A stretch of 64,000 bases of DNA from Chloroflexota bacterium (lineage in GTDB: Bacteria > Chloroflexota > Anaerolineae > Anaerolineales > Villigracilaceae), in contig JACPYX010000009.1 in assembly GCA_016195815.1 (NCBI GenBank), positions 1 through 64,000 of the forward strand, read 5' to 3'. The notes beneath the pieces are model-generated. The model saw only the letters and a list, made by a program, of their open reading frames with translations. It did not search any database and was not told where the DNA came from. Shown one piece after another: positions 8,328-49,837 of the stretch; the first letter of the stretch is position 1, and every line of letters starts with the position of its first letter. The position numbers were made by a program, and so were the translations under genes.

Positions 8328-10319
8328 TCAAATTTGTAATGCTTCCCACTCTGCAAGCCGGTCATCCATCTCACGCTGCGTGGACTCGTATTCCTTCCCC
8401 AGCCGCGTGACCTCGGCCGCGTCCGCAGGCGGGTTTTCCAACTGCGCGCCGAGTTCGGCCAGTTGTGCTTCGAGCACAGCGATCTTATTTTCAAGCTGCT
8501 GTAAATGCGCCAGCTTTCTTCTTTCGTCTTTCGCTTCCGCGCTGTGTGTTTTACGTTTTACGGGACTCGGGATTCGAGAATCGGGAATAGTCCCCGCCAA
8601 CCGCGCCGCTTCCTTCTCTCTTTCATCACGCATCTGCGAATACGTGCCCTTGAAGGCGATCATGCGCGATTCGTCCGGTTCGACTTCCCAGATTTGTGTG
8701 CCAAGCGCGTCGATCAAATAACGGTCGTGAGTCACCAGCAGGATCGTACCGGCATAATCATCCAGCACGGCCTCCAAAACTTCCTGCGAGGGAATGTCAA
8801 GATGATTGGTCGGCTCATCCAATAACAGCAAATTCGTATCCTGCAAAGCAAGTTTGGCCAAAGCTAAACGTCCGCGCTCGCCGCCGGACAGGACTTCGAC
8901 TTTTTTATACGCGTCGTCGCCGCTGAAAAGATATTTGCCGAGATACTCGCGGATCTGACCCGGCAGCCAGTTCGGCATGATGGAGCCGATCTCTTCGATC
9001 AGAGTCTTGTTCGGGTCGAGACCTTCGTGGGCTTGCGCGAAATAGCCGACGTGCAGACTCGCCCCCAGAATCACCTCACCCGCCAACGGTCCGATCTGAC
9101 CGAGGATGGTCTTCAAAAAAGTTGTCTTACCCGCGCCGTTTGGTCCGATCAGGGCCGCGCAATCGGTGCGCCGCAGTTCGAGATCCGGCGCAGAAAAAAG
9201 CAGTTTGCCGGGATATCCGACTTGCAAATCTTTGGTGCGCAGGACAAGATCGCCGGAACGTTTTTGCGAGCCAAGTTTCAAATGCAAATGCGGCAGGGTG
9301 CGGACGGGCGAACGCAGCGCGTTGACGCGTCTCTGCGCTTCTTCAACGCTGAACGGGCTGGTGGTGGTTTCGACATCCAACTGCGACCAGTTGCTGTTGA
9401 GCACCGCGTCCATGCCAACCTGCTCGATGGCCTGCACCACGCGCGTCAGCCGGCGCAGTTTGCCTTTGGCCTGCTGCACATTCTGGCCCGCAATATTTTT
9501 CTTGATGTACTCAAGGTCTTTGACCAGCTTTTCTTTTTCAGAATCAAAAACTTCCTGACGGCGGTCGGCGCGTTCCTGCCGCTGACGAAGATAGGCCGAA
9601 TAATTTCCATGATACAACTCGAACGCGCCGGGATGCAATTCGAGAATCGCATTGCAAGCCTTGTCGAGAAAATAACGGTCATGCGAAACGATGACCGCCG
9701 CGCCGTCCCACTGACTGAGATAACCTTCGAGCCATTCGACCGCCGCGATGTCGAGGTGATTAGTGGGTTCATCGAGCAGCAATAAATCGGGATCAGATAA
9801 AAGCAATCGCGCAAGAAAAGCACGCGTGCGCTGTCCGCCCGAAAGATGATCTAGCGACAAAGTGTAATCGGCCGCGTCGAAGCCCAGGCCGGTCAATACT
9901 TGTTTGATGCGCGTGATGTATGTGTATCCGCCGCGCCGCTCGAAATCTTCCTGCAATTTTCCATAACGCTCCATCACTTCATCGGCCTGCGTCGCCATCT
10001 GACTTTCGAGCTTGTGCAGTTCCTCCTGTTTTTGGATCAACTCATCGAAGACGGAATGACAGGCGTCCCATAACGTGCCGGACATTTCAAAATCCGCTTC
10101 CTGCGACAAGTACCCGATTCGGACTCCCTTTGAGCGGCTGACCGTTCCCGAGCTGGCTTCGTCCACGCCGGCCAGGATGCGCAGGAGCGTCGTCTTACCG
10201 ACGCCGTTCGGCCCGACCAGCGCCATGCGCGCGCCTTTGGATACGCTGAAAGACAGCCCGCTGAAGATATCGACCGGGCCGTAGGATTTGGAGAGGGATT
10301 TGACGGAGATGAGGGACAT
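8328..10319 (-). CDS. ABC-F family ATPase
   Basis: 663 aa with two ATP-binding domains and no membrane segments. First domain: Walker A GPNGVGKTT near residue 37, signature LSGGQRTR, Walker B LLLLDEPTNHLD. Second domain: GPNGAGKTT near 397, LSGGERGR, LLLLDEPTNHLD. The linker between them carries the charged helices of the P-site tRNA-interaction motif. A C-terminal coiled coil (about 600-663) follows. ABC-F proteins act on the ribosome, relieving stalling or resisting antibiotics. Around residues 575-586 (GTIPDSRIPSPV) the DNA is a 33-bp palindrome that looks like an in-frame insertion. Subclass is uncertain. Confidence 0.92.
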   Translation of the reverse strand: MSLISVKSLSKSYGPVDIFSGLSFSVSKGARMALVGPNGVGKTTLLRILAGVDEASSGTVSRSKGVRIGYLSQEADFEMSGTLWDACHSVFDELIQKQEELHKLESQMATQADEVMERYGKLQEDFERRGGYTYITRIKQVLTGLGFDAADYTLSLDHLSGGQRTRAFLARLLLSDPDLLLLDEPTNHLDIAAVEWLEGYLSQWDGAAVIVSHDRYFLDKACNAILELHPGAFELYHGNYSAYLRQRQERADRRQEVFDSEKEKLVKDLEYIKKNIAGQNVQQAKGKLRRLTRVVQAIEQVGMDAVLNSNWSQLDVETTTSPFSVEEAQRRVNALRSPVRTLPHLHLKLGSQKRSGDLVLRTKDLQVGYPGKLLFSAPDLELRRTDCAALIGPNGAGKTTFLKTILGQIGPLAGEVILGASLHVGYFAQAHEGLDPNKTLIEEIGSIMPNWLPGQIREYLGKYLFSGDDAYKKVEVLSGGERGRLALAKLALQDTNLLLLDEPTNHLDIPSQEVLEAVLDDYAGTILLVTHDRYLIDALGTQIWEVEPDESRMIAFKGTYSQMRDEREKEAARLAGTIPDSRIPSPVKRKTHSAEAKDERRKLAHLQQLENKIAVLEAQLAELGAQLENPPADAAEVTRLGKEYESTQREMDDRLAEWEALQI
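8562..8594. repeat. In-frame palindrome inside the ABC-F gene
   Basis: Imperfect 33-bp palindrome running from GGGACT to AGTCCC with the centre GATTCGAGAATC. It codes for about 11 residues in the linker before the C-terminal coiled coil. It shares the GATTCGGGAATCGGG-like theme with 33986-34024 in dnaG. Confidence 0.6.
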
Positions 10320-10391
10320 AAAGAAAGTGAGTAGTGAATAGTAAATAGTTTTGAGCGCCCCGAATTATAAAGCACCCTTCGCCAAATAAAG

Positions 10392-29873: not shown

Positions 29874-30494
29874 ATGGCAAAAGCAGGCAGACGTTATCCA
29901 CTTGTTATTTATACGCGCATGATAGACCGCTGGTGGCCGGCCATCTTCTTTCTTGGGCTGGCCCTGCTGGCATTGGCCTGGCCGTTCTATCAAGATTTAT
30001 ATACGCGGCTGACCGAACCGTGGCGCTGGATGACCCTGGCCGGATTGGGCGCAGCCGTGATCTTGGTATCGCTCATCATGCTGGCGCTGCGCAAGAGCGC
30101 ATACGTGCAGCCGTTTGGTGACCATTTATTGCTCGCCACACCCTTCCTGCGGATGAATATTTCTTACCGCCGAATCCTGCGCACCACAACCGCCAGCATG
30201 GCGTCCCTGTTTCCTTCCAAAAGTTTGCGCGGCATGAAGCGCGAGATCATCGAACCCCTGGCCTCTATGACCGCAGTGGTCATGGAACTGAACGCTTTTC
30301 CCATTTCACGCAGCGTGTTAAAATTTTTTCTTTCTTCTTTTTTCTTCAAAGATCAGACGCCGCATTTTGTGATCCTCACCCAAAACTGGATGGGGTTCAG
30401 CACTGAACTTGAGAGTCTGCGCGCCAGCGGGAATCAACCCCTGCAACATCGAACTGCAAACCAGTCCATTCTTTCCAAACTGCCGAAGAAATGA
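29874..30494 (+). CDS. Membrane protein of unknown function
   Basis: 206 aa. Two transmembrane helices near the N-terminus (WWPAIFFLGLALLALAWPFY and WMTLAGLGAAVILVSLIMLA) precede a soluble domain of PH-like appearance (SAYVQPFGDHLLLATPFLRM). No family is recognised with confidence. Its stop overlaps the next start (ATGA), so it is coupled to the nucleoside enzyme gene. It seems to belong to the DUF3467-translin transcription unit. Confidence 0.75.
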   Translation: MAKAGRRYPLVIYTRMIDRWWPAIFFLGLALLALAWPFYQDLYTRLTEPWRWMTLAGLGAAVILVSLIMLALRKSAYVQPFGDHLLLATPFLRMNISYRRILRTTTASMASLFPSKSLRGMKREIIEPLASMTAVVMELNAFPISRSVLKFFLSSFFFKDQTPHFVILTQNWMGFSTELESLRASGNQPLQHRTANQSILSKLPKK

Positions 30495-32653: not shown

Positions 32654-34582
32654 CTACTCTTGCCGTTTCAATGTTATCTTCCGATTTGCCTGGTCGAGAT
32701 CGCGCAGCAAACGCGCGTATTGCATCACCAATTCCTGATAAGAAGCCGCGCGCAGGCCGCCTGCCTGATGGGCCTCCTCCTGCAAAAACCTTAACTGATT
32801 CAAATTTTCGCCAGCCGCCACGCGGCGCAATTTGATGACGCCGCGCAGTAATTCTTCCATCACTTTCTCTTCGAGAGGCTCAACCTTTTCAGCCTGCGCC
32901 AGCAACTCACGCGACAATTCCTGCAGTTGCTCCGGTAACGCATCCACCACAAACTTGTGGTGTTCGCTTTTATCCTGCTCCACTGATTGACGGATCAGCC
33001 CGAACAACATTTGATAATCAGTATACTCGAAATCCTGCACCGTTAAAATCGCCAGGCCGAACTGTTGCAGTTGGCGGTCCAGCCGGTAAAGAAGTTCGGG
33101 CTTACGGAACAAAACACCGATGATGTAAGCCTCGATCTTTGAGCTGGACGATACCGCCACAGCGACCTGCGCGGACTCTTGGGCTTGTTTCTGCCCAACC
33201 GGTCTTGATCGCTTCACGCGCGGACCCTGAACCTGCGCGCCGATTAACGCGCGTTCATCCACCCGCAACATGCGCGCCAATTGCTGACGATATGTATCGC
33301 GTTCCATTGCGCTGGGCAGGTCTTCGATCAGCGGCAGGACCTGCGACGCAATTTGATTCTTGATCTTCGGATCATTGATATTTTGTCCCGCCGTGAGTGT
33401 CTCCATTACATGCGTGACGATGGGGTTGGCATTCTCGATCAAACGCTTCCATTCATTTTTGTCGCGCGCCACGATCTCATCGGGATCCAGGTCGTCAGGC
33501 ATGGATGCCACGCGCAAATCCGCTTGCAGGCGCGCTTCATTTCTGAGCAGGCCGCGCGCATCGAAGCCGAGTTCGCCCTCGTGATCCATGGCGGAACGCG
33601 CAGCTGCGAGCCCGCGCAGAACGGCTTTCTGTCCGGCAGTATCCGGGTCGAGCGCGAGGACGATGCGGCGCGTGAACTTCTTGAGCAAACGTAACTGATC
33701 TTCAGTCAGCGCGGTGCCCATCGGCGAGACGACGTTTTCGTATCCGGCCTGATGCAGCGCAATCACGTCCAGATAACCTTCAACAATCACGGCCTGGTCT
33801 GCGGTGCGAATGGGTTTACGCGCTCGATCCAAGCCATATAGCAAATGGCCTTTGGTGAAGATCGGCGTTTCGGGAGAATTCAAAAATTTGGGAATATCGT
33901 TCGCATCCACGATGCGCGCGCCGAAGCCGGCCATCTTCCCATTTTCATTACGAATCGGAATCATGATGCGGTTGCGGAAGCGGTCGTAAATCCGGGATTC
34001 GGAGTTCGATATTCGGGAATCGGGTTCGCGTTCTGTGGCTAAACCCGCGTCAATCAGGTCTTGCAGAGTGTAGCCGCGTTGGCTGAAATGCTTGAGGGCG
34101 TTGTCGAAGCCTGGAGGCGCGTAGCCCAGGCCAAAAGTCTCGATGGTTGCGTCGCCAAGTCCGCGCTTTTCGCGCAGATAGGTTAATACATCCTTGTTGT
34201 TGAACAGATGTGTACGATAAAAAATAATTGCATCTTCGAGGAGGACGCGCAAATGTTCGTGCGCTTCCTTGACTTCAGGTTTTTCCGCAACGTACGACTC
34301 AACCTTCACGCCTGCACGGTCAGCCAGTGTCTGCAGGGCCTCTTTGAAATCAATCCCGTCTTTCTTCATCACGAACTTGAAAATATCGCCGCCTTCGTTG
34401 CATTCACCGAAACAACGCCATGTGCCGGTCTCAGGCCAGACGACAAAAGCCGGCGTGTTCTTGTTGGCGTGGAAGGGGCAGAAGCCGGTGTAGTTCTTGC
34501 CCGCATGGCGCAATTTGACTCCGGCCTCGGAGACGAGGTCTACAATATCTATGCGGGATTTGATTTCATCAATAGTGGACAT
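32654..34582 (-). CDS. dnaG: DNA primase
   Basis: 642 aa. Zinc-binding domain with C35, H38, C57 and C61 (GFCPFHANK; WRCFGEC). The RNA-polymerase domain covers about 105-370, with YDRFRNRIMIPIRNENGKMA and the TOPRIM region (AVIVEGYLDVIALHQAGYEN; LALDPDTAGQKA). A C-terminal DnaB-binding helical domain follows. It makes the RNA primers for replication. Around residues 186-199 the DNA carries a GATTCGGGAATC-type palindrome that looks inserted in frame. The ATG follows a TATAAT by 8 nt. Confidence 0.96.
   Translation of the reverse strand: MSTIDEIKSRIDIVDLVSEAGVKLRHAGKNYTGFCPFHANKNTPAFVVWPETGTWRCFGECNEGGDIFKFVMKKDGIDFKEALQTLADRAGVKVESYVAEKPEVKEAHEHLRVLLEDAIIFYRTHLFNNKDVLTYLREKRGLGDATIETFGLGYAPPGFDNALKHFSQRGYTLQDLIDAGLATEREPDSRISNSESRIYDRFRNRIMIPIRNENGKMAGFGARIVDANDIPKFLNSPETPIFTKGHLLYGLDRARKPIRTADQAVIVEGYLDVIALHQAGYENVVSPMGTALTEDQLRLLKKFTRRIVLALDPDTAGQKAVLRGLAAARSAMDHEGELGFDARGLLRNEARLQADLRVASMPDDLDPDEIVARDKNEWKRLIENANPIVTHVMETLTAGQNINDPKIKNQIASQVLPLIEDLPSAMERDTYRQQLARMLRVDERALIGAQVQGPRVKRSRPVGQKQAQESAQVAVAVSSSSKIEAYIIGVLFRKPELLYRLDRQLQQFGLAILTVQDFEYTDYQMLFGLIRQSVEQDKSEHHKFVVDALPEQLQELSRELLAQAEKVEPLEEKVMEELLRGVIKLRRVAAGENLNQLRFLQEEAHQAGGLRAASYQELVMQYARLLRDLDQANRKITLKRQE
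33986..34024. repeat. In-frame palindrome inside dnaG
   Basis: GGATTC at the left and GAATCGGG at the right flank a related central motif (TTCGATATTCGG). It adds about ten residues (PDSRISNSES) before the conserved YDRFRNR motif, where other primases have a short loop. The theme is shared with 8562-8594. Confidence 0.55.
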
Positions 34583-36933: not shown

Positions 36934-37482
36934 AATGTCTCATCCTTATTAACGATACCATTAAGAATCTGTTATGAAGCCCCTCCTGTTTGAACAGGAA
37001 GGTTTCGGCATAGAAATTTTAATTCATTGATCTTCAGCTTTGAAATATTGATTTAATATACTGGCAATTTGTTGCACAAAAGGTTCAAACATAATATTCC
37101 CATGGAAACAATCTATGGAATGTACAATCAATTTCTTAATTCCCACTTTCTTCCAGCCGTGATCTGTTTCGCCGCCTTCCAGCATCTGTTGGCGGCTCGC
37201 CAGAAACATAACCACTCGGCCATCATACGGCTCCGGCTCATAAGCAATGGAGGCCGCAACGTTTGCCCGTTCAACGCGATCATATACCGCAGAACTCTCC
37301 GAGTAACGAGAACGAATCTCGTTCATTTTCCGCGCCTCTTTGGACTCGTTCAATTTATACTTCCACAGGTTAACGTAATAGCCGATATAAGCGCCCAAGC
37401 CTTGTATCCCGCCGCTCTGCAATGTCTGCATGTGTTTTCGGGCAAGCAACAAGGGATTTAGTTTGTTGGAACTCGTTCCTAG

Positions 37483-38317
37483 AAGTTGTCTCAAAAATGG
37501 TTAGAATGGGTTCAAGCCTGAGATGGGAGCGAACCCATGGATCTCAAAGACGAACAATGGGAAGTGATAAAGCGGTTGATACCAAAGCCAGTGATACGCC
37601 CCGATGGGCGTGGCAGACCCAGAGTGAAAGACCGAGAGATTCTGAACGGCATCCTGTGGATCATGCGAACCGGAGCTTCATGGCGCGACTTGCCAGATCG
37701 GTATCCACCGTACCAAACTTGCCACCGCAGGTTCCAGGAATGGGTGCGAGCAGGAGTGTTTGAACAGATGTTGCGAGCGCTGGCCAAGGATGTCAAGGAG
37801 CGTGGCAAGCTGGATTTGACGGAATGTTTCATCGATGGCACCTTTGTCATCGCAAAAAAGGGGGCCGCGGGGTGGGAAAAACCAAGCGGGGCAAGGGCAG
37901 CAAACTCATGGCAGTGGCAGATAGCACTGGTCTTCCTATCGCCATATGCGTTGAAAGTGCTTCGCCGCATGAAGTCCGACTGGTCGAAAGAACGCTCGAA
38001 CATCGCTTCACGAAGGAGCGCCCAAGAAAACTGATTGGAGATCGGGCTTACGACAGCGACCCCTTGGACGAGAGACTGCGCAAACAAGGTATCGAACTGA
38101 TCGCACCCCACAAGACCAACCGCAAGAAATCCCCCACCCAGGACGGTAGACCTCTGCGGCGCTATCGAAATCGCTGGAAGATTGAGCGCCTGTTCGCCTG
38201 GCTCCAAAACTTTCGGAGGATACAGACCCGTCATGAATATATCCTTGAAAATTATCTCGCTTTCGTTTTGTTAGGCTGCATGGTTATTTTCCTCAGATCC
38301 TGTTTTTGAGACAACTT
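37483..38317 (+). mobile_element. IS5-family insertion sequence (835 bp)
   Basis: Perfect 15-bp terminal inverted repeats AAGTTGTCTCAAAAA / TTTTTGAGACAACTT, bounded by CTAG duplications. It holds one transposase gene split into two overlapping frames. Size, CTAG-type target and frameshifted DDE transposase fit the IS5 family (IS427-like group). It is inserted in the thioesterase part of the NRPS-like gene. Confidence 0.92.
37537..38309 (+). CDS. IS5-family DDE transposase, made by frameshift
   Basis: Frame A starts at 37537 ([18 protein letters not shown]) with the first catalytic Asp in CFIDGTFV, and runs out of the conserved sequence after about 110 codons. Frame B carries on from about 37860 to 38309, with GDRAYDSD (second Asp) and [18 protein letters not shown] (Glu). 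The frames meet at AAAAAAGGGGG (37854-37864), a classical slippery run for -1 frameshifting in IS elements. The product cuts and joins the IS ends. It may be active, since ends and duplications are intact. Confidence 0.88.
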
Positions 38318-40532
38318 CTAGTTTCATTTCAGCTAAATAGGTATCGAGCATTCCGACCAAGGCGATCTTCTCACTCTGGCGAAGAAGCCTTTGCGCCATT
38401 TCATAAGCCACTAATCCACCGCTGGATTCGCCTAGAAAATAATAGGGACCTTCCGGTTGAATCTTTCTGATTTCCACCAAACAATCGAGGGCGATTTCCT
38501 CGATGGTGGCTTTGATCTCTTCACCGGCTTCAAAACCGCGCGAGCGGATGAAATATACCGGCTGGTCACTCGATAAATAACGGAGTAGACGATGGAATCG
38601 AATCGGGTTGCCGCCCTTGCCGCCAATACAGAAAAGCGGCTTTCCATCACCACCGGTTCTGATCGAAATGGCGATGGACTCGGGATCGAAATAGATTTCG
38701 TTCCGCAGGAGTTCGGCTTGCTGACGTATAGTCGAAGCGCGGGAAATGATCGCTACCGGCATTTTTCGAGCAAACGCTTCTTCAATGGACAGCATCAGGC
38801 GAACGGCCAGCAGCGAATCGCCGCCAACATCGAAAAAGTTATCTTTAACACCGATCTGTTTTATTTTGAAAGTCTCCTGCCAAATAGCAGTCAACCGACG
38901 CTCGACATCGTCCGTTGGTCGATCTTCCTCTTGCAGTGCGCGTTCAAAGTCAACAGCTGGCAAGGCCTTTTTATCCACTTTACCATTAATATTAAGCGGC
39001 AATGCATCCAGAAAAACAAAGAAGGTTGGAATCATATAGGCTGGCAATTTTTTTCCAGACCTTTGCGAAACGCGGACGGATCGCACGGCACAAAAGGTTT
39101 GACAACTAAATAAGCAACTAATTGTTTTTGAGCGGGATCATGACGCGCAGGAATTGCGACCACGACCGCTTGTCGCACGCTATGCAGATCATAAATGGCT
39201 TGCTCTATCTCGGTTAAGTCAACTCTATACGCACGGATTTTGACAATATTATCCTTGCGCCCCAAATGTTCCAGTTGCCCGTTCGGGAGGAGCCGCCCAA
39301 GGTCGTTGGAATAATAGATGCGTTTCGATGGATCGTTTGGGTCGGCATGATAGACCGCATCGGTCATCTCGGGCTTGTTCCAATACCCGTATGGAAGATA
39401 TTTGCTGCGAATGGCAATTTCGCCCACCTCGCCTTGCGGCAGGGAATGGCGTTCCTCATCCACGATGAGAATCTCCTTGCCAGGCAACGGAAGCCCCAGG
39501 GAAATCGTTTCCTGAGGAATATCGCTATCGTAACGGACGAAGTTGACGCTAAGGAGGGTTGCCTCACTCATCGCAAACGCACAGCCCAAAACCGTCCTCT
39601 CCGAGAACAAAGACTGCCATATGCGGATATCCTCTGCCTGTATCGTTTCACTACCGGTCAACAAAATCCTCAAATGCGGAAAATGACGCCAGGTGTTTTC
39701 AAGCACACCCATGAACGAGCGCAACAGGCTGGAGGACACCTGCAAAATAGTGATCCGTTTTTCCTCCACAAAGGCGGCGAATGCCAGCATATTCATGCGC
39801 CTGAGATCAACAGGATACAGGGTCCCACCGCACAGCAACGTGGGAAACAGAGGCGAGACCGACCAAGAAAAACTGCATGAAAAAGGAAGGGGCTGTTTGT
39901 CATGCGGGTTCATACAATATAGATTGATAACGGTTATTAAGAAATGATTTAAGCTGTGGTGAGTATAAACCACGCCTTTAGGTCGCCCGATCGAACCAGA
40001 TGTGTAATAGACTGCCATGAGATTTTCAGGGGATCGGCGAACAAAAATCTTTCCGTCGTTCCCCTTCAACGCATCCATTTCGATAATCGAAACAGATTGA
40101 TCCGCAATACTACGCGCCAAAGCAGAGTTGTTTGAATTGCTGACGATCAAGCGCGCTCCAAAATCGGCAAGCATGTTCGCCAGCATTTCAGGCGGGTTAA
40201 CAAGATCCAAGACCGAATAAATCTTCCCCGCTTTTAAAACCGCCAGAACAGCAATGACCTGTGAGAGTCCCTGCTCTACCAGAATAGCAACAGGCTCTTC
40301 TTTGTCCCCCATCCGCTCAAGGATGTAATTCGCCAGTTGATTCGTTAAACGATCCAATTCGCGATAGGAAATTTTCCGGCCATCCGCCTCAAGCGCAATT
40401 CGGTCCGCATAACGTTCGTATGCCTCCTGAAGCAGCTCCTGCGTCGAACATCCGGCTTTCTCAAATGGGAACGGCTGATAACCATCGGGGATCGGTACAA
40501 TCGATTTTGGATTGACAGGAACAGACATATCT

Positions 40533-43500
40533 TTAGAACCCTTCAAGTTTGCTGAGATCGGCAACTCCGTTTGAGAGCGCCGCAATTCTTTGCAGGAGTG
40601 CGAGGCGATTTTCTTTCAAAGTCTTATCATCTGCCATGACCAGCACTTTATCAAAAAACTCATTGACGGCGGGAATCATCGGCATAAACGCGTTCAGGAA
40701 ATCGTCCACGCTTCCTTCCGCCCTCGAAGCGGACTCGGCTTTCTCCAGGGCTTTGGACAACGCCTGCTCCTGTTTTTCGGCAAAGTACTTTTTATCAACT
40801 TTGAAGATTTCTTTTTGATCGCGCGTAATTCTTACACAGCGCGCGAACGCAGGCAGAATCTCATGCCAATCTTCGCGCTCCACCCACGCCTGGAGTTGCT
40901 TCACGGCTCGGGCCGACGCGGCCGGGTTGGCGGATTGCTCCGCAAGGATGGCATCCACCACATCGTGCTTGTAGCCCGCATCATTTAATACAACTTTCAA
41001 ACGACCCGCCAGAAAATCTAAAATTTGTTTCTGCACTTCATCACTGACTTTGACCGGCTGCGTCTTGGCAGATTTTTTCACGGCTTCAGCGAGATCAAAA
41101 TCAACATCATGCTCGATCAACGGCTGGACAACACCAATCGCGGCGCGGCGTAGGCCGAACGGATCTTTCGCGCCAGTGGGAGCGAGTCCTGCCGCGAAAA
41201 GGCCGACCAACGAGTCGAGTCTGTCAGCCAATGCAACCGCGAGACCAGCCCTCGTTTTTGGCACAGCTTGATATTGCTCACCGATTGCGTCAGCCACTTC
41301 TTTAGGTTCGCCAGAACGCAAAGCATATTCACGTCCTATCACACCTTGAAGGGACGTCATTTCAGTGACCATTTGAGTCACGAGGTCGGCTTTGGCGAGG
41401 AAGGTTGCGCGGTGCGTGTTACGTGTTTCGTGTTCCGTTAGTCCGAGCATGGCCGCGAGTTGATCGGCAAGTTTCAATATGCGTTCGGATTTATCCAACA
41501 TCGAGCCAAGTTTGGTGTGGAAGGTAAGTCCAGAAAGTTGTGCGCGATAATCTTCAAGGGGACGCTTGACATCTTCGCGGACAAAGAAGTTCGCATCCGC
41601 AAAGCGCGCGCCGAGGACATGTTCGTTCCCTTCGCGGACGGTGTCCACGCCAATGTCGTCGCCGTTGCGGATGGCAATAAAGTGAGGCAAAAGGGATGTG
41701 TCAGGTTGCCCAGTATCAAGTGTCAGATTCTTGCTCGACTTGACACTTGATCCAGGAACACTTGACACCTTTCGTACAGGGAAATATCTCTGATGTTTCT
41801 TCATCACGGAAATCAACACGTCGCGCGGCAGGGACAGGAATTCTTCACTGAACCCGCCCATGACGGCGGTGGGCAATTCGATGAGATTCGCCACTTCGCT
41901 GAGAAGATCATCATCAATGATGGCTTCGCCGCCGACGAGGGACGCCGCCTGCTTGACCTGCTCCAGGATGGAGGCTTTGCGTTCTTCCTTATCCAAAACG
42001 ATTCCCGATTCCCGAATCACGTTGAAATATTTATCCGCAGAAGGTATTTTGATTTCGGGTGAGTCGTAGGGGCGCAGGCCGCGCGTCACATTACCTGATG
42101 TCACGCCCGCGCATTCAAATGGAATCACCTGATCGCCGAGCAGTGCCACGTACCAGCGAATCGGACGAGAGAACGAAACGCCAGAGTCGTTCCAGCGCAT
42201 GGACTTCTCGAACTTGATGCTCTCCACCAACTTTGGCAACGCTTCGGCAAGGACTTCGGGAGTCGGGCGTCCTTTTTGCTTCACAACTGCGAAGACATAT
42301 TTGCCGCCGTTCTCTTCGCGGACTTCAAGGTCTTCGACTTTGATTCCGTTTTTCTTTGCAAAGCCTTGCGCGGCGGGAGAGGCGATTCCATTTTTATCGA
42401 AGGCCTTATCCGCCGGCGGACCTTTGACGAGCTCTTCGCGGTCAGGTTGATTCGGGGCGAGAGAGTCAATCGAAACGGCGAGCCGCCTCGGGGTCGAAAA
42501 GATGCGGACGTCTTTGTGGTCAAGATGAAGTTCATCGAGCAGAGTCGGCACACGGGCTGTCAAATGCGCGTGAGTAGTATCCACATCAGAAGCGGGGAGT
42601 TCTTCAATGCCGATTTCGAAGAGCAGGGATTGGGGAGTAGTGAGTAGAGAGTAGGCAGCGGGTTTACCAGTCTCTATTCTCTTTTCACTACTCTCTTCCA
42701 ATAACGGATATTCAAGCCCCTTGCGCTGTTCGCTATAACTTTCAGCCACCTTGCGAGCCAGTTCCCTTATCCTTCTAAAAAACGCCTGTCTTTCTGCAAC
42801 AGAGATCGCGCCACGTGTATCTAAAATATTGAACGAGTGCGAACATTTCAAAACGTAGTCGTGCGCGGGGACGATCAGACCCGCGGCGAGACAGGCGTCG
42901 GCTTCGGCGGAGAAGAGGTCATACATTTTGCGGACGCGTTCGACGTCGGCGGTTTCGAAATAATATTTGGAATGTTCAAATTCTTCCTGACGGCGAATCT
43001 CGCCATAACTTACACCCGCGCCCCATTCTTCATCCCAGATGGCTTTGGCATTGTTGAGCGCGATCAGGATGCGTTCGAGTCCGTAAGTGATCTCAACCGA
43101 GACGGGGTCAAGCGCCACGCCGCCCATCTGCTGGAAGTAGGTGAACTGCGTGATCTCCTGCCCGTCGAGCCAGACCTCCCAGCCCAAGCCCCAGGCGGAG
43201 ATGGCAGGCTGTTCCCAGTTGTCTTCCACGAAGCGGATGTCGTGTTTACGCGGGTCAATGCCGAGGGCTTTGAGCGACTCGAGATAGAGTTCCTGCGGAT
43301 TGCCGGGATCAGGTTTGAGAATCACTTGAAATTGAGTATGCAATTGAAAGCGGTTGGGGTTCTCGCCGTAACGCCCGTCATCCGGGCGGACAGATGGCTC
43401 GACGTAAGCGACGTTCCACGGTTCGGGTCCGAGCACGCGCAGGAAGGTGTTGGGATTCATCGTCCCTGCGCCGACCTGGGTGTAGTAGGGCTGTGTGATC

Positions 43501-43565
43501 AGGCATCCGTGCGAGGCCCAGAAGGATTGGAGGTTGAGGATGATTTCTTGAAAGGAGGAAGACAT
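40533..43565 (-). CDS. glyQS: Glycyl-tRNA synthetase, fused alpha and beta subunits
   Basis: 1010 aa. Residues 1-285 are the catalytic alpha subunit ([49 protein letters not shown]). From about 315 the beta subunit follows ([20 protein letters not shown]-type body; C-terminal DALR-like anticodon-binding region). It charges tRNA-Gly. Fusions of GlyQ and GlyS are known in some phyla. The linker at about 290-310 and a stretch at about 598-622 are coded by palindromic DNA that appears inserted in frame, and [12 protein letters not shown] near 710 is coded by a CGTGTT triplicate. A -10 box lies at 43613. Confidence 0.95.
41414..41435. repeat. Short tandem CGTGTT motif inside glyQS
   Basis: Three imperfect copies of CGTGTTN in a row within the beta-subunit coding region, giving an unusual THETR-like polar run. 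It resembles the other low-complexity phrases in this genome. Confidence 0.45.
41715..41751. repeat. In-frame palindrome inside glyQS (beta subunit)
   Basis: Perfect 11-bp arms ATCAAGTGTCA / TGACACTTGAT around 15 nt, with a further TTGACAC copy at about 41763. It codes for Ser/Asp/Thr-rich residues between FPVRK and [11 protein letters not shown], where other GlyS proteins have only a few residues. Confidence 0.6.
42636..42694. repeat. In-frame palindrome in the GlyQ-GlyS linker
   Basis: Arms of 20 bp, GAGTAGTGAGTAGAGAGTAG and CTATTCTCTTTTCACTACTC, pair with three mismatches around a 19-nt centre. They encode part of the linker between the alpha and beta parts. A related phrase (GTGAGTAGTGAATAGTAAATAG type) lies in the ABC-F leader at about 10327-10349. 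Confidence 0.65.
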
Positions 43566-44993: not shown

Positions 44994-45184
44994 AGGAGTT
45001 TGGCTTTGTCCAGCCACACATCCACACGCCGTCTTCCCTGGCACCGCCCGCCAGGGCAGGTGTGGTGAGGCGGGCCCTTCGGGAGCGCATTGACGCGGTC
45101 ACAGCCTGTGCCACGAAGTGGTATCCGCGTGGGCGTGGCATAAAAATACTTTCAAAGGTCGTTTTGATTCAATCATAAATGTCC
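44994..45184 (+). repeat. Direct repeat DR-B, copy 1 (~190 bp)
   Basis: Imperfect direct repeat of 45899-46081. The best matching blocks are AGGAGTTTGGCTTTGTC, CCCTGGCACCGCCCG and GTGCCACGAAGTGGTATCCG. It ends in a diverged AT-rich tail. The two copies flank the MntA-HepT type gene pair. Inverted pieces such as TGCCAC/GTGGCA occur inside, but there are no integron attC core sites. Confidence 0.8.
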
Positions 45185-45898: not shown

Positions 45899-46081
45899 AG
45901 GAGTTTGGCTTTGTCGAACCACGCGTCCACGTCGTTTTCCCTGGCACCGCCCGTCAGGGCATGTGTGGTCAGGCGGCGTAGAGTCCGCGCACGGGGTCAC
46001 GGCCTGTGCCACGAAGTGGTATCCGCGTGGGCATGACACAGAAAAACTTTGAGGGGTCGCTTTGGTTCGGACATATCCGTC
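45899..46081 (+). repeat. Direct repeat DR-B, copy 2 (~183 bp)
   Basis: Second copy of the repeat at 44994-45184, same orientation, roughly three quarters identical by eye. It begins 31 nt after the HEPN stop codon and ends just before the Doc toxin gene that reads the other way. Confidence 0.8.
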
Positions 46082-46084
46082 CTG

Positions 46085-48259: not shown

Positions 48260-49714
48260 ATGACCGATCTCATCAACCTCACTCTCACTGAAATGCAAGC
48301 CGGGCTCGCCAACGGCGATTTTTCCAGCCGTGAACTCGTCCAGGCCGCGCTGAAACGGATCGAGTCTTCCGATGCAAAGACGCACGCCTTTTTGCATTTG
48401 GCAAAAGAGTCTGCGTTGAAGCAGGCAGAAGAATCAGACCGACAGCGGAAAACCGACAAGCGTCAACCATTGTTGGGCATTCCCATCGCCATCAAAGATG
48501 TGTTGAGCGTTGAAAGCCTGCCCTGCACGGCAGGTTCGAAAATTCTCGAAGGTTATGTGCCTCCGTTCACTGCCACGTCAGTAAAGAAATTGATCGAAGC
48601 GGGCGTTGTCATCATCGGCAAAACCAATACCGACGAATTTGCGATGGGATCGTCCACCGAAAATTCCGCTTACGGCGTGACGCATAATCCATGGGACTTG
48701 ATGCGCGTGCCCGGCGGTTCATCCGGCGGAAGCGCGGCAGCAGTCGCAGCGCGATATGTCCCCGCCGCGCTCGGCACCGACACCGGCGGCTCGGTGCGCC
48801 AGCCCGCCTCGTTGTGCGGCGTGACCGGACTCAAAACCACGTATGGCCGCGTCTCGCGTTATGGATTAATTGCATTTGGCTCGTCGCTCGATACGGTCGG
48901 CGCGTTTGGCCGGACCGCCGAAGATGTGGCGCAGATTTTTTCTGTCATGGCCGGACGCGATGAAAAAGATGCAACCTCGGCAGATGCGCCGGTTCCGCAG
49001 ATCAAATTCGGTGGCGACGCGCTGCGCGGATTAAAGATCGGGGTGCCGAAAGAATATTTTATTGGCGGCATCCAGCCCGAAGTCGAGGAAAAGACGCGGG
49101 CGGCCATCGCGCAGTTGAAGTCGCTCGGCGCGGAAATCCGCGAGATCAGCCTGCCGCATACCGAGTACGCGCTTCCCGTCTATTACATCATCGCGCCTGC
49201 CGAGGCGTCTGCGAACCTGGCGCGTTTCGACGGCGTGCGTTACGGCCCGCGCGCGGATGCCGATAATTTGTGGGATGTGTTCTTCAAAACGCGCGGTGGT
49301 AAATTTGGACCGGAGGTGACGCGGCGCGTGATGATCGGGACGTACGCGCTTTCGGCGGGATATTACGACGCGTATTACGGACAGGCGCAGAAAGTTCGCA
49401 CGCTCATCAAACGGGACTTTGAGGCGGCCTTCGGCGACGTGGACCTGATCGCCGCCCCGACCGCGCCGGAGACGGCTTTCAAAATTGGCGAACATGTGAA
49501 TGACCCGCTGGCGATGTATCTGGAAGATGTGTTCACTTTGCCTGCAAACCTGGCAGGCGTGCCGGGGATTTCTTTCAACTGCGGATTCGATAACAATAAT
49601 CTGCCGGTCGGTTTACAATTGATCGCCCCGCACTTTCGCGAAGATTTGTTATTGCACGCCGCGCACGCGTATCAGCAGGTCACGGATTGGCATAAACGAT
49701 CACCAAAATTTTAA
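48260..49714 (+). CDS. gatA: Aspartyl/glutamyl-tRNA amidotransferase subunit A
   Basis: 484 aa amidase-signature protein. Catalytic Lys in GIPIAIKDVLSVESLPCTAG; the Ser-cisSer-Lys triad continues in PGGSSGGSAAAVAARYVPAA and LGTDTGGSVRQPASLCGVTG, then LKTTYGRVSRYGLIAFGSSL. GatCAB converts Glu-tRNA(Gln) and Asp-tRNA(Asn) to Gln- and Asn-tRNA. GatB and GatC are not in the window. A palindromic element directly follows its stop codon. Confidence 0.95.
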   Translation: MTDLINLTLTEMQAGLANGDFSSRELVQAALKRIESSDAKTHAFLHLAKESALKQAEESDRQRKTDKRQPLLGIPIAIKDVLSVESLPCTAGSKILEGYVPPFTATSVKKLIEAGVVIIGKTNTDEFAMGSSTENSAYGVTHNPWDLMRVPGGSSGGSAAAVAARYVPAALGTDTGGSVRQPASLCGVTGLKTTYGRVSRYGLIAFGSSLDTVGAFGRTAEDVAQIFSVMAGRDEKDATSADAPVPQIKFGGDALRGLKIGVPKEYFIGGIQPEVEEKTRAAIAQLKSLGAEIREISLPHTEYALPVYYIIAPAEASANLARFDGVRYGPRADADNLWDVFFKTRGGKFGPEVTRRVMIGTYALSAGYYDAYYGQAQKVRTLIKRDFEAAFGDVDLIAAPTAPETAFKIGEHVNDPLAMYLEDVFTLPANLAGVPGISFNCGFDNNNLPVGLQLIAPHFREDLLLHAAHAYQQVTDWHKRSPKF

Positions 49715-49837
49715 ATGTCATTGCGAGCCGCGCTCTTTGCGGCGAAGCAATCTCATCATTCAAATTTGGGGATTGCTTCGCTGGGTCTCGATATGGCGGA
49801 AGAACACCGCCTACTCGACCAGCGCTTGCAATGACAT
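49715..49837. repeat. Dispersed palindromic element, copy 3 (123 bp)
   Basis: Perfect 10-bp terminal inverted repeats ATGTCATTGC / GCAATGACAT. Inner inverted pair GAAGCAATC and GATTGCTTC. No coding capacity. It resembles a MITE or large REP unit and is related to 2011-2100. Confidence 0.85.

Follow-up and report, generated by a model that had tools for sequence, protein, structure and literature searches.

Tandem heptanucleotide arrays, some with inverted arms, in essential genes of a Chloroflexota bacterium: possible traces of slippage and fold-back template switching

The DNA analysed, referred to below as the window, was a stretch of 64,000 nucleotides from a Chloroflexota draft genome (contig JACPYX010000009.1, positions 1 to 64,000). 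On the reverse strand, the window encoded a fused glycyl-tRNA synthetase, GlyQS, of 1010 amino acids (40533..43565), which was assigned by the Pfam domains tRNA-synt_2e and tRNA_synt_2f and by a profile match to the solved GlyQS 7lu4. This gene carried several of the hairpin and heptamer features described here, which were located in the GlyQ-GlyS linker, in a GlyS loop, at residues 709-717, and at residue 514. Also encoded on this strand were an ABC-F protein of 663 amino acids (8328..10319; Pfam ABC_tran, ABC_tran_Xtn, and ABC_tran_CTD) and DnaG, of 642 amino acids (32654..34582; Pfam Zn_ribbon_DnaG, DNAG_N, and Toprim). Period 7 accounted for 9 of the 23 Tandem Repeats Finder rows for the window, and six loci passed a period-7 scan (8513-8534, 10326-10349, 30324-30346, 41413-41438, 41998-42021, and 42633-42655). 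Among them, the AGTGAAT heptamers at 10326..10349 on the forward strand lay immediately upstream of the ABC-F start codon and in no listed ORF, and the TTTTTTC-type heptamers at 30324..30346, also on the forward strand, lay within ORF 29874-30494. The GlyS-loop hairpin and the dnaG insert of this genome fell below the threshold of the scan, the latter with a score of 10/14.

Repeats of other kinds were also observed in the window. About 190 nt were duplicated at 821-1014 and 2188-2380, with the copies 1366-1367 nt apart and identity at 100% over 75 nt and at 96% over 124 nt; an imperfect duplication at 44994-45184 and 45899-46082 (~900 nt apart) had 80-90% identity. A 44-nt palindrome-like repeat, GTCATTGCGAGCCGC...GCGGCGAAGCAATCTC, occurred in two copies (86%) at 2007-2050 and 49711-49754. 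A perfect 19-nt inverted repeat (37479-37497 / 38303-38321, 805 nt apart) stood on either side of ORF 37512-38234 and resembled the ends of a small mobile element.

In the GlyQ-GlyS linker, an imperfect palindrome had been predicted at 42636-42694, and it was confirmed as a hairpin at 42633..42694 on the reverse strand, whose 20-nt arms (42635-42654 / 42674-42693) were 85% complementary. The left arm contained GAGTAGT-type heptamers with a period-7 score of 12/14, and the word run read GAGTAGT GAGTAGA GAGTAGG. Folded as single-stranded DNA, the hairpin reached -10.8 kcal/mol, whereas shuffles averaged -4.87 kcal/mol (z -3.1), and 1 of 200 shuffles was as good. The further claim that this palindrome adds residues was contradicted by the linker lengths, with a median of 87 nt in 29 array-bearing genomes versus 84 nt in 21 other genomes. 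Linker arrays scoring at least 11/14 were found in 29 of the 50 genomes and consisted of 24 different words. At 12/14, there were 23 linker arrays at period 7, 3 at period 8, 2 at period 11, and 0 at periods 5, 6, 9, and 10. Two pairs of closely similar linkers were observed separately. The linkers of relatives G021 and G022 (L012, L011) differed at 1 of 78 nt, though their GlyQS genes were 82% identical; other blocks of these genes also reached 0.97-0.98, which may reflect either shared descent or a mosaic produced by recombination. In G019 and G028 (L014, L016), whose genes were 73% identical, a long compound linker was nearly letter-identical around a CCCTGAGCGAAGTCGAAGGG-like core, which we take to resemble a repeat familiar from other genomes.

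The GlyS-loop hairpin, formed by CTTGACA-type words, was located at 41698..41768 on the reverse strand by its inverted-repeat arms and its fold. A palindrome had been predicted at 41715-41751; it was present and proved larger than claimed, with 28-nt arms (41698-41725 / 41741-41768) that were 79% complementary. Its fold had a z of -4.2, and 0 of 200 shuffles were as good, making it stronger than the linker hairpin. This loop did add residues, as had been proposed: it measured 81 nt here versus 15 nt between the same flanks in many relatives, and the loop following KKHQRYFPV extended up to 144 nt across the genomes. The CGTGTTA heptamers of GlyS residues 709-717 (41413..41438, reverse strand) were detected by both Tandem Repeats Finder and the period-7 scan. 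Period 7 (10/12) occurred at residues 700-724 in 10 genomes, and other periods from 4 to 12 occurred in 0-1. This segment was 75 nt in the window, in 10/10 genomes with an array, and in 32/40 others; by this comparison of lengths over 50 genomes, the array adds no residues. The GATTCCC heptamers at residue 514 (41998..42021, reverse strand), found by the same two methods, encoded IRESGIVLD, which aligned without gaps to the homologous IREAGIVLD; homologues keep these residues, and the run is possibly due to chance. A second class of coding palindrome, in frame and G-rich or GTAG-tagged (GGGAGAGGG type; GTAGGGGCG...CGCCCCTAC) but without period 7, was noticed at the same sites in other relatives, in the GlyS loops of L004, L006, L007, L008, L017, and L330 and in the ABC-F linkers of L306 and L310.

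In the ABC-F gene, Tandem Repeats Finder detected three period-7 runs at 8513..8594 on the reverse strand (CTTTCGT, 8514-8533; GTTTTAC, 8548-8562; CGGGAAT, 8561-8588), in the linker N-terminal of the C-terminal domain. Only 8513-8534 passed the period-7 scan, and this array encoded KDERRKLA, with similar residues in homologues. The palindrome proposed at 8562-8594 folded no better than shuffles (z -0.69 for 8556-8600 and -0.08 for 8510-8600), and no added residues could be recognized, as the lengths of 8 array-bearing genes (123-150 nt) overlapped those of 22 others (114-186 nt). In dnaG, the GATTCCC/GAATCCC-like insert at 33986..34024 on the reverse strand exceeded the commonest form by 24 nt and was also found in G004 (L277). 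The palindrome proposed for it folded like shuffles (z -0.06 for 33975-34035), but the addition of residues was upheld, with a segment of 105 nt here and in two others versus 81 nt in 17/30 homologues. A strict period-7 scan of 30 dnaG genes returned 0 arrays versus 1, 2, and 2 at periods 4, 5, and 8; dnaG thus provides no evidence for the heptamer reading. Conservation of the residues in homologues, named beforehand as an argument against inserted elements, was found for KDERRKLA of ABC-F and IRESGIVLD of GlyS; for dnaG and the GlyS loop, in turn, homologues without the extra residues exist. Overall, two of the four in-frame palindromes of the original prediction (linker and GlyS) folded beyond shuffles and two (ABC-F and dnaG) did not, and its proposal that essential genes tolerate in-frame DNA of partly palindromic character was supported. 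The theme common to the sites is tandem 7-nt words, some of them set as inverted arms, and not one palindrome family.

A GlyQS match was obtained in 69 genomes, of which 50 were aligned, some with incomplete genes; the rest were fragmented or not included. In these 50 genomes, GlyQS carried 70 period-7 arrays, compared with 3, 5, 0, and 2 at periods 5, 8, 10, and 11, and 67 of the 70 fell in the 15-residue bins 285-300, 600-615, 705, and 915-945. An AlphaFold2 model of the GlyQS of the window was built from 28 aligned sequences (mean pLDDT 71.7, pTM 0.47; the GlyQ half was partly poor). Residues 284-304 and 603-621 were below pLDDT 50 in this model, as were parts of the GlyQ half, and the remaining array places were predicted to lie at or beside the breaks between helices 689-707/711-723, 900-915/931-947, and 931-947/953-973. 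The model was consistent with the proposal that the elements fall in loops or linkers, in that the array sites of GlyQS were largely predicted disorder or helix breaks, though parts of the GlyQ half scored equally low.

To the genome at large, we applied the scan in a sample of 864 kb (the window and 40 further 20-kb stretches, out of a 3.16 Mb draft genome), with a lag-7 match at 13/14 or 12/14 positions, thresholds of our own choosing. The 13/14 criterion gave 25 loci at period 7, and it gave 0-2 loci at each of the other periods from 1 to 13 except period 12 (6 loci); period 14, the double unit, had 12 loci, and periods 18, 21, and 27 had 4-6. One block-shuffled copy of the scanned sequence yielded 0 loci at period 7. 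With the 12/14 criterion, 54 loci were obtained at period 7 versus 4, 9, 3, 2, and 1 at periods 5, 8, 10, 11, and 13. The period-7 loci lay inside ORFs of at least 150 amino acids in 42 of 54 cases, where such ORFs, called greedily and mechanically, made up 85.8% of the sequence; 36 of these 42 sat within the span from 5% to 75% of the ORF length. The arrays were about 20-80 nt long, and many of the words contained no GGG on inspection. An inverted partner with a stem score of at least 10 was found for 15 of 53 arrays versus 3 of 212 control places, indicating that hairpins are a real yet minority form among the arrays. Stop-free words were also considered as a sign of selection and set aside: the in-ORF arrays were mostly stop-free on the coding strand, but ORF calling requires this, and the argument is circular.

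The original prediction had called for a search for further copies in the genome. Related words did recur: CGATTCCCGATTCCC had 20 matches at 14 places with at most 1 mismatch versus 0 for its reversed control, and CTTGACACTTGACAC had 28 matches with at most 2 mismatches versus 2 in the control. The linker word GTGAGTAGTGAGTAG, with at most 2 mismatches, was barely above its control (9 versus 5). Many different words were present within one genome. Among relatives, AATTACCAATTACC (AATTACC x2) had 155 matches in G021, 4 in the present genome, and none in 40 of 61 genomes, with a total of 315 over the 61 genomes versus 12 for the reversed control, overlapping matches being counted separately. The 20 matches of GATTCCCGATTCCC were distributed over 9 of the 61 genomes, with 0 for its control, and GATTCCC x3 was also frequent in Xanthomonadaceae and Moorena among the matches listed. 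The density of arrays varied widely: G021 had 9 in one 20-kb stretch and 49 in 260 kb, the present genome 66 in 864 kb (with finer merging), G012 1 in 80 kb, and G164 0 in 60 kb; for the wider phylum, five genomes (G066, G078, G081, G120, and G150) were sampled over 220 kb and contained 0. Only 23 of 49 arrays in G021 and 17 of 33 in G172 lay in ORFs, and this lower share indicates that the high genic share is a trait of the present genome. As a separate observation, G172:C3, where it aligned to G021:C5:167108, held arrays of 8-nt words (ACAGGTAC type) over at least 154 nt; period 8 thus occurs in some relatives.

The two halves of a hairpin that was written as a whole would be expected to match each other in the same genome but not between different genomes. 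For the linker, the mean complementarity of the halves was 8.51 within versus 5.64 across genomes (n=50; permutation p 5e-5). The loop halves gave 8.91 within versus 4.99 across in the 22 of 50 genomes with a loop of at least 45 nt (permutation p 5e-5). A small effect was also observed for the GlyS 915|945 stretches, which flank a helix (6.36 within versus 5.63 across; n=50; permutation p 2.5e-4); the spacer between them was 33 nt in 12/12 genomes inspected, and in G017 the 915 stretch held GACCGTGGACGGTGG and the 945 stretch CCACCGTCCACCGTC. For six control pairs taken from other parts of the gene, the difference was -0.1 to 0.3, and two of them reached p 0.02-0.03. Dinucleotide shuffles of the halves gave 6.26, 6.37, and 5.86 for the linker, the loop, and 915|945, with maxima of 200 shuffles of 6.73, 7.00, and 6.34, respectively.

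Turnover of the words was followed in G021 and G172, two species of one genus with ~90 kb in common at 90% identity. Many arrays were retained with small changes, and one, at 163818, had a single additional 7-nt unit. At the same site of the GlyS loop, AATTACC in one species faced AAAGTCG/AAGGTCG in the other, and in an apparent intergenic spacer (G021:C5:128602; stop and start codons read by eye), ACTGATC faced AAATCGT. Two further word differences, at GlyS 915 and 199888, involved a G172 array below threshold, which applies to 2 of the 4 differences. At GlyS residue 705, AATTACC words were present in G172 and absent from G021 (75 and 78 nt), and they occurred in the same register in G003, G028, G134, and G172, four genomes with scattered positions on the tree. 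At 113969, 198740, and 75542, the automatic flank-anchored comparison of G021 with G172 was unreliable, and other comparisons were used there. In genus g8, with 4 of 5 genomes aligned, the GlyS loops comprised no array, two AACCTTC forms of unequal length, and AATTACC, and on a GlyQS tree calculated without linker and loop, the words were mostly scattered. As for the window itself, 17 of 55 ORFs had a homologue of at least 50% identity in the available stretches of six relatives, too few for a listing of indels by synteny. The occurrence of different words at one site in most run-bearing species hints, at the level of sequence comparison, at a mutation process that may rewrite tolerant stretches of proteins.

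Considering these results together, we propose that the features are heptamer-array elements produced by 7-nt slippage and fold-back template switching, and we put the probability of this inferred mechanism at roughly one half. Arrays would lengthen in 7-nt steps through slippage, which would cover the tandem units and the one-unit differences. Fold-back template switching during replication, in the manner of quasi-palindrome correction, would then copy one arm as its reverse complement over neighbouring sequence, and the palindrome would thus be written over a permissive coding stretch instead of being inserted as an element. Such switching would cover the matching arms, the arms that flank a helix, and replacement at constant length, and words would spread through the genome whenever the switch led to a different array that carried a matching word, as may occasionally happen. 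Selection would act as a filter only on frame, stops, and fold, with the protein tolerating the result. Since 7 cannot be divided by 3, the three frames of a strand all translate an array into one and the same cyclic heptapeptide, and a stop-free word is therefore safe in any frame. More tentatively, a distinct mutational process may overwrite permissive stretches of essential genes with 7-nt arrays and their reverse-complement partners, at a pace that leaves species of one genus with different words at the same codons; protein linkers would then evolve through templated overwriting and not through point mutation or insertion.

The slippage and template-switching model is favoured by the period-7 excess, the covariation of arms, the constant lengths, the one-unit difference between sisters, and the replacement of words in sisters. 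Against it, no event was observed directly, the nearest pair differing at 10% of sites, and 38 of 53 arrays had no strong inverted partner. Bursts of one word in a lineage (AATTACC in G021) and the shared register at residue 705 need copying between loci or species, for which the model accounts only loosely. Constant length could equally reflect insertion plus deletion kept by selection, and dnaG and the GlyS loop grew.

The growth of dnaG and the GlyS loop counts in favour of the main rival, which we consider less likely: mobile palindromic elements, like RPE, REP, or MITE, would be inserted and removed by a trans-acting enzyme, the hot sites would be insertion-tolerant places, and each species would have different families. 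A 57-nt insert in the dnaG of G172 relative to G021 would fit such elements, as would the abundance of a single word in one lineage, the palindromes without period 7 that some relatives have at these GlyS and ABC-F positions, and the Y1 transposase domains in 57 of 61 relatives' genomes (7 matches in G021). However, the elements have no common sequence, only the 7-nt words being common, and words were replaced at constant length at three sites. At the 90% identity of G021 and G172, the ends of the arrays were blurred. The present draft genome yielded no stand-alone Y1 transposase, its sole Y1_Tnp match lying inside a 548-aa ORF. This match (L209, G000:C20:21021-21380) is in an ORF with counterparts of ~520-610 aa in many relatives and may represent a repurposed Y1 domain. 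A RAYT/REP origin was accordingly rejected for the present genome; shorter transposases exist in relatives, where such a link may hold.

An improbable alternative is that ready-made segments were imported from other species by recombination. Such import would explain the single difference in 78 nt between the G021 and G022 linkers in genes of 82% identity, although this likeness may be shared descent, and other blocks of the gene also reach 0.97-0.98. It would likewise account for AATTACC in one register at residue 705 in four tree-scattered genomes, but the flanks of these four cases were unlike by eye, and import leaves the origin of the words and the matching of arms unaccounted for. Quite improbable as well is that the hairpins are selected DNA or mRNA signals for translation pausing, mRNA stability, or linker folding. 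The spacer in which G021 and G172 keep a heptamer hairpin, similar in size but built from different words, points in this direction, as does the maintained linker length; 21 of 50 linkers without an array at 11/14, the short GlyS loop of many genomes, and the coincidence of the sites with predicted disorder or helix breaks argue against such a signal. Chance or codon-driven periodicity in low-complexity sequence may explain weak single cases (GATTCCC in conserved GlyS, the ABC-F run that encodes KDERRK, the folds of the ABC-F and dnaG sites, and the linker word at 9 versus 5) but is refuted for the set by the period-specific excess in the present genome and in GlyQS genes, the reversed controls (0 versus 20, 2 versus 28, and 12 versus 315 in 61 genomes), and the arrays retained between G021 and G172.

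The arrays at orthologous coding sites can be aligned over 50 genomes, so that 7-nt growth, arm matching, and word replacement are traceable site by site. If overwriting is true, it would be a route by which essential proteins change abruptly at several residues, one not captured by ordinary substitution models, and the question "why seven?" would become testable.

The tandem heptanucleotides of cyanobacteria are named STRR. The features of the window had been likened to the Rickettsia elements, and they share with these the presence of palindromic DNA in frame in conserved genes, where it is tolerated (PMC2229807). The Rickettsia elements are reported as an inserting family of 105-146 bp, unlike the present features, which are shorter (~20-80 nt), have no family sequence, and often add no length (PMC2229807). 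With 24 words in 29 linkers, a strong partner for 15 of 53 arrays, and several sites without added residues, membership of such a family was not supported. Heptameric repeats are reported to be over-represented in many bacterial genomes, with their origin and role described as not settled (PMC4692102); an explanation quoted there links slippage to the length of DNA that the polymerase holds. According to that paper, the repeats of Xanthomonas and Nostoc (GGGAATC / GGGGA(C/T)T) are mostly intergenic and under-represented in coding regions (PMC4692102). They and the cyanobacterial repeats resemble the present arrays in their genome-wide tandem 7-nt units, inverted arrangements, and variable unit number, and the GATTCCC word occurs in the window; here, in contrast, 42 of 54 loci are in ORFs, words are many, and turnover takes place at orthologous coding sites (PMC4692102). 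In our own scans, 7 of 84 arrays of other words lay in ORFs at Moorena loci chosen via GATTCCC (coding fraction 0.71), and 17 Xanthomonas loci gave 29 seed-like arrays and 1 other, where choosing the loci via that word biases the seed-like counts. Searches of the open-licence PMC literature brought up no paper that deals with heptamer arrays of Chloroflexota or with a turnover of words within coding sequence. Geobacter metallireducens has four-unit heptanucleotide elements (GGACCGG, 49 copies), which, like the present arrays, are found within as well as between genes; they differ in forming one alignable family per genome, and the part of the paper drawn upon mentions neither word turnover nor matching arms (PMC2700814). 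The TAACTGA repeats of Beggiatoaceae are likewise 7-nt direct repeats, common to distant phyla and with few within ORFs, but in the text used here they consist of a single word, lie mostly upstream of start codons, and have rare related heptamers (PMC4679880). Template switching between inverted-repeat arms has been reported for yeast coding DNA and for the origin of hairpins in RNA genes (PMC8604942, PMC8794818). Such quasi-palindrome switching makes arms alike and produces multi-nucleotide changes in coding DNA, as proposed here, whereas the sections of these papers used here mention no 7-nt tandem word or repeated replacement of whole arms (PMC8604942, PMC8794818). Collectively, judged by their sequences, the features are a variant of heptameric repeats and not Rickettsia palindromic elements, and their closest counterparts are the repeats of cyanobacteria, Xanthomonas, and Geobacter.
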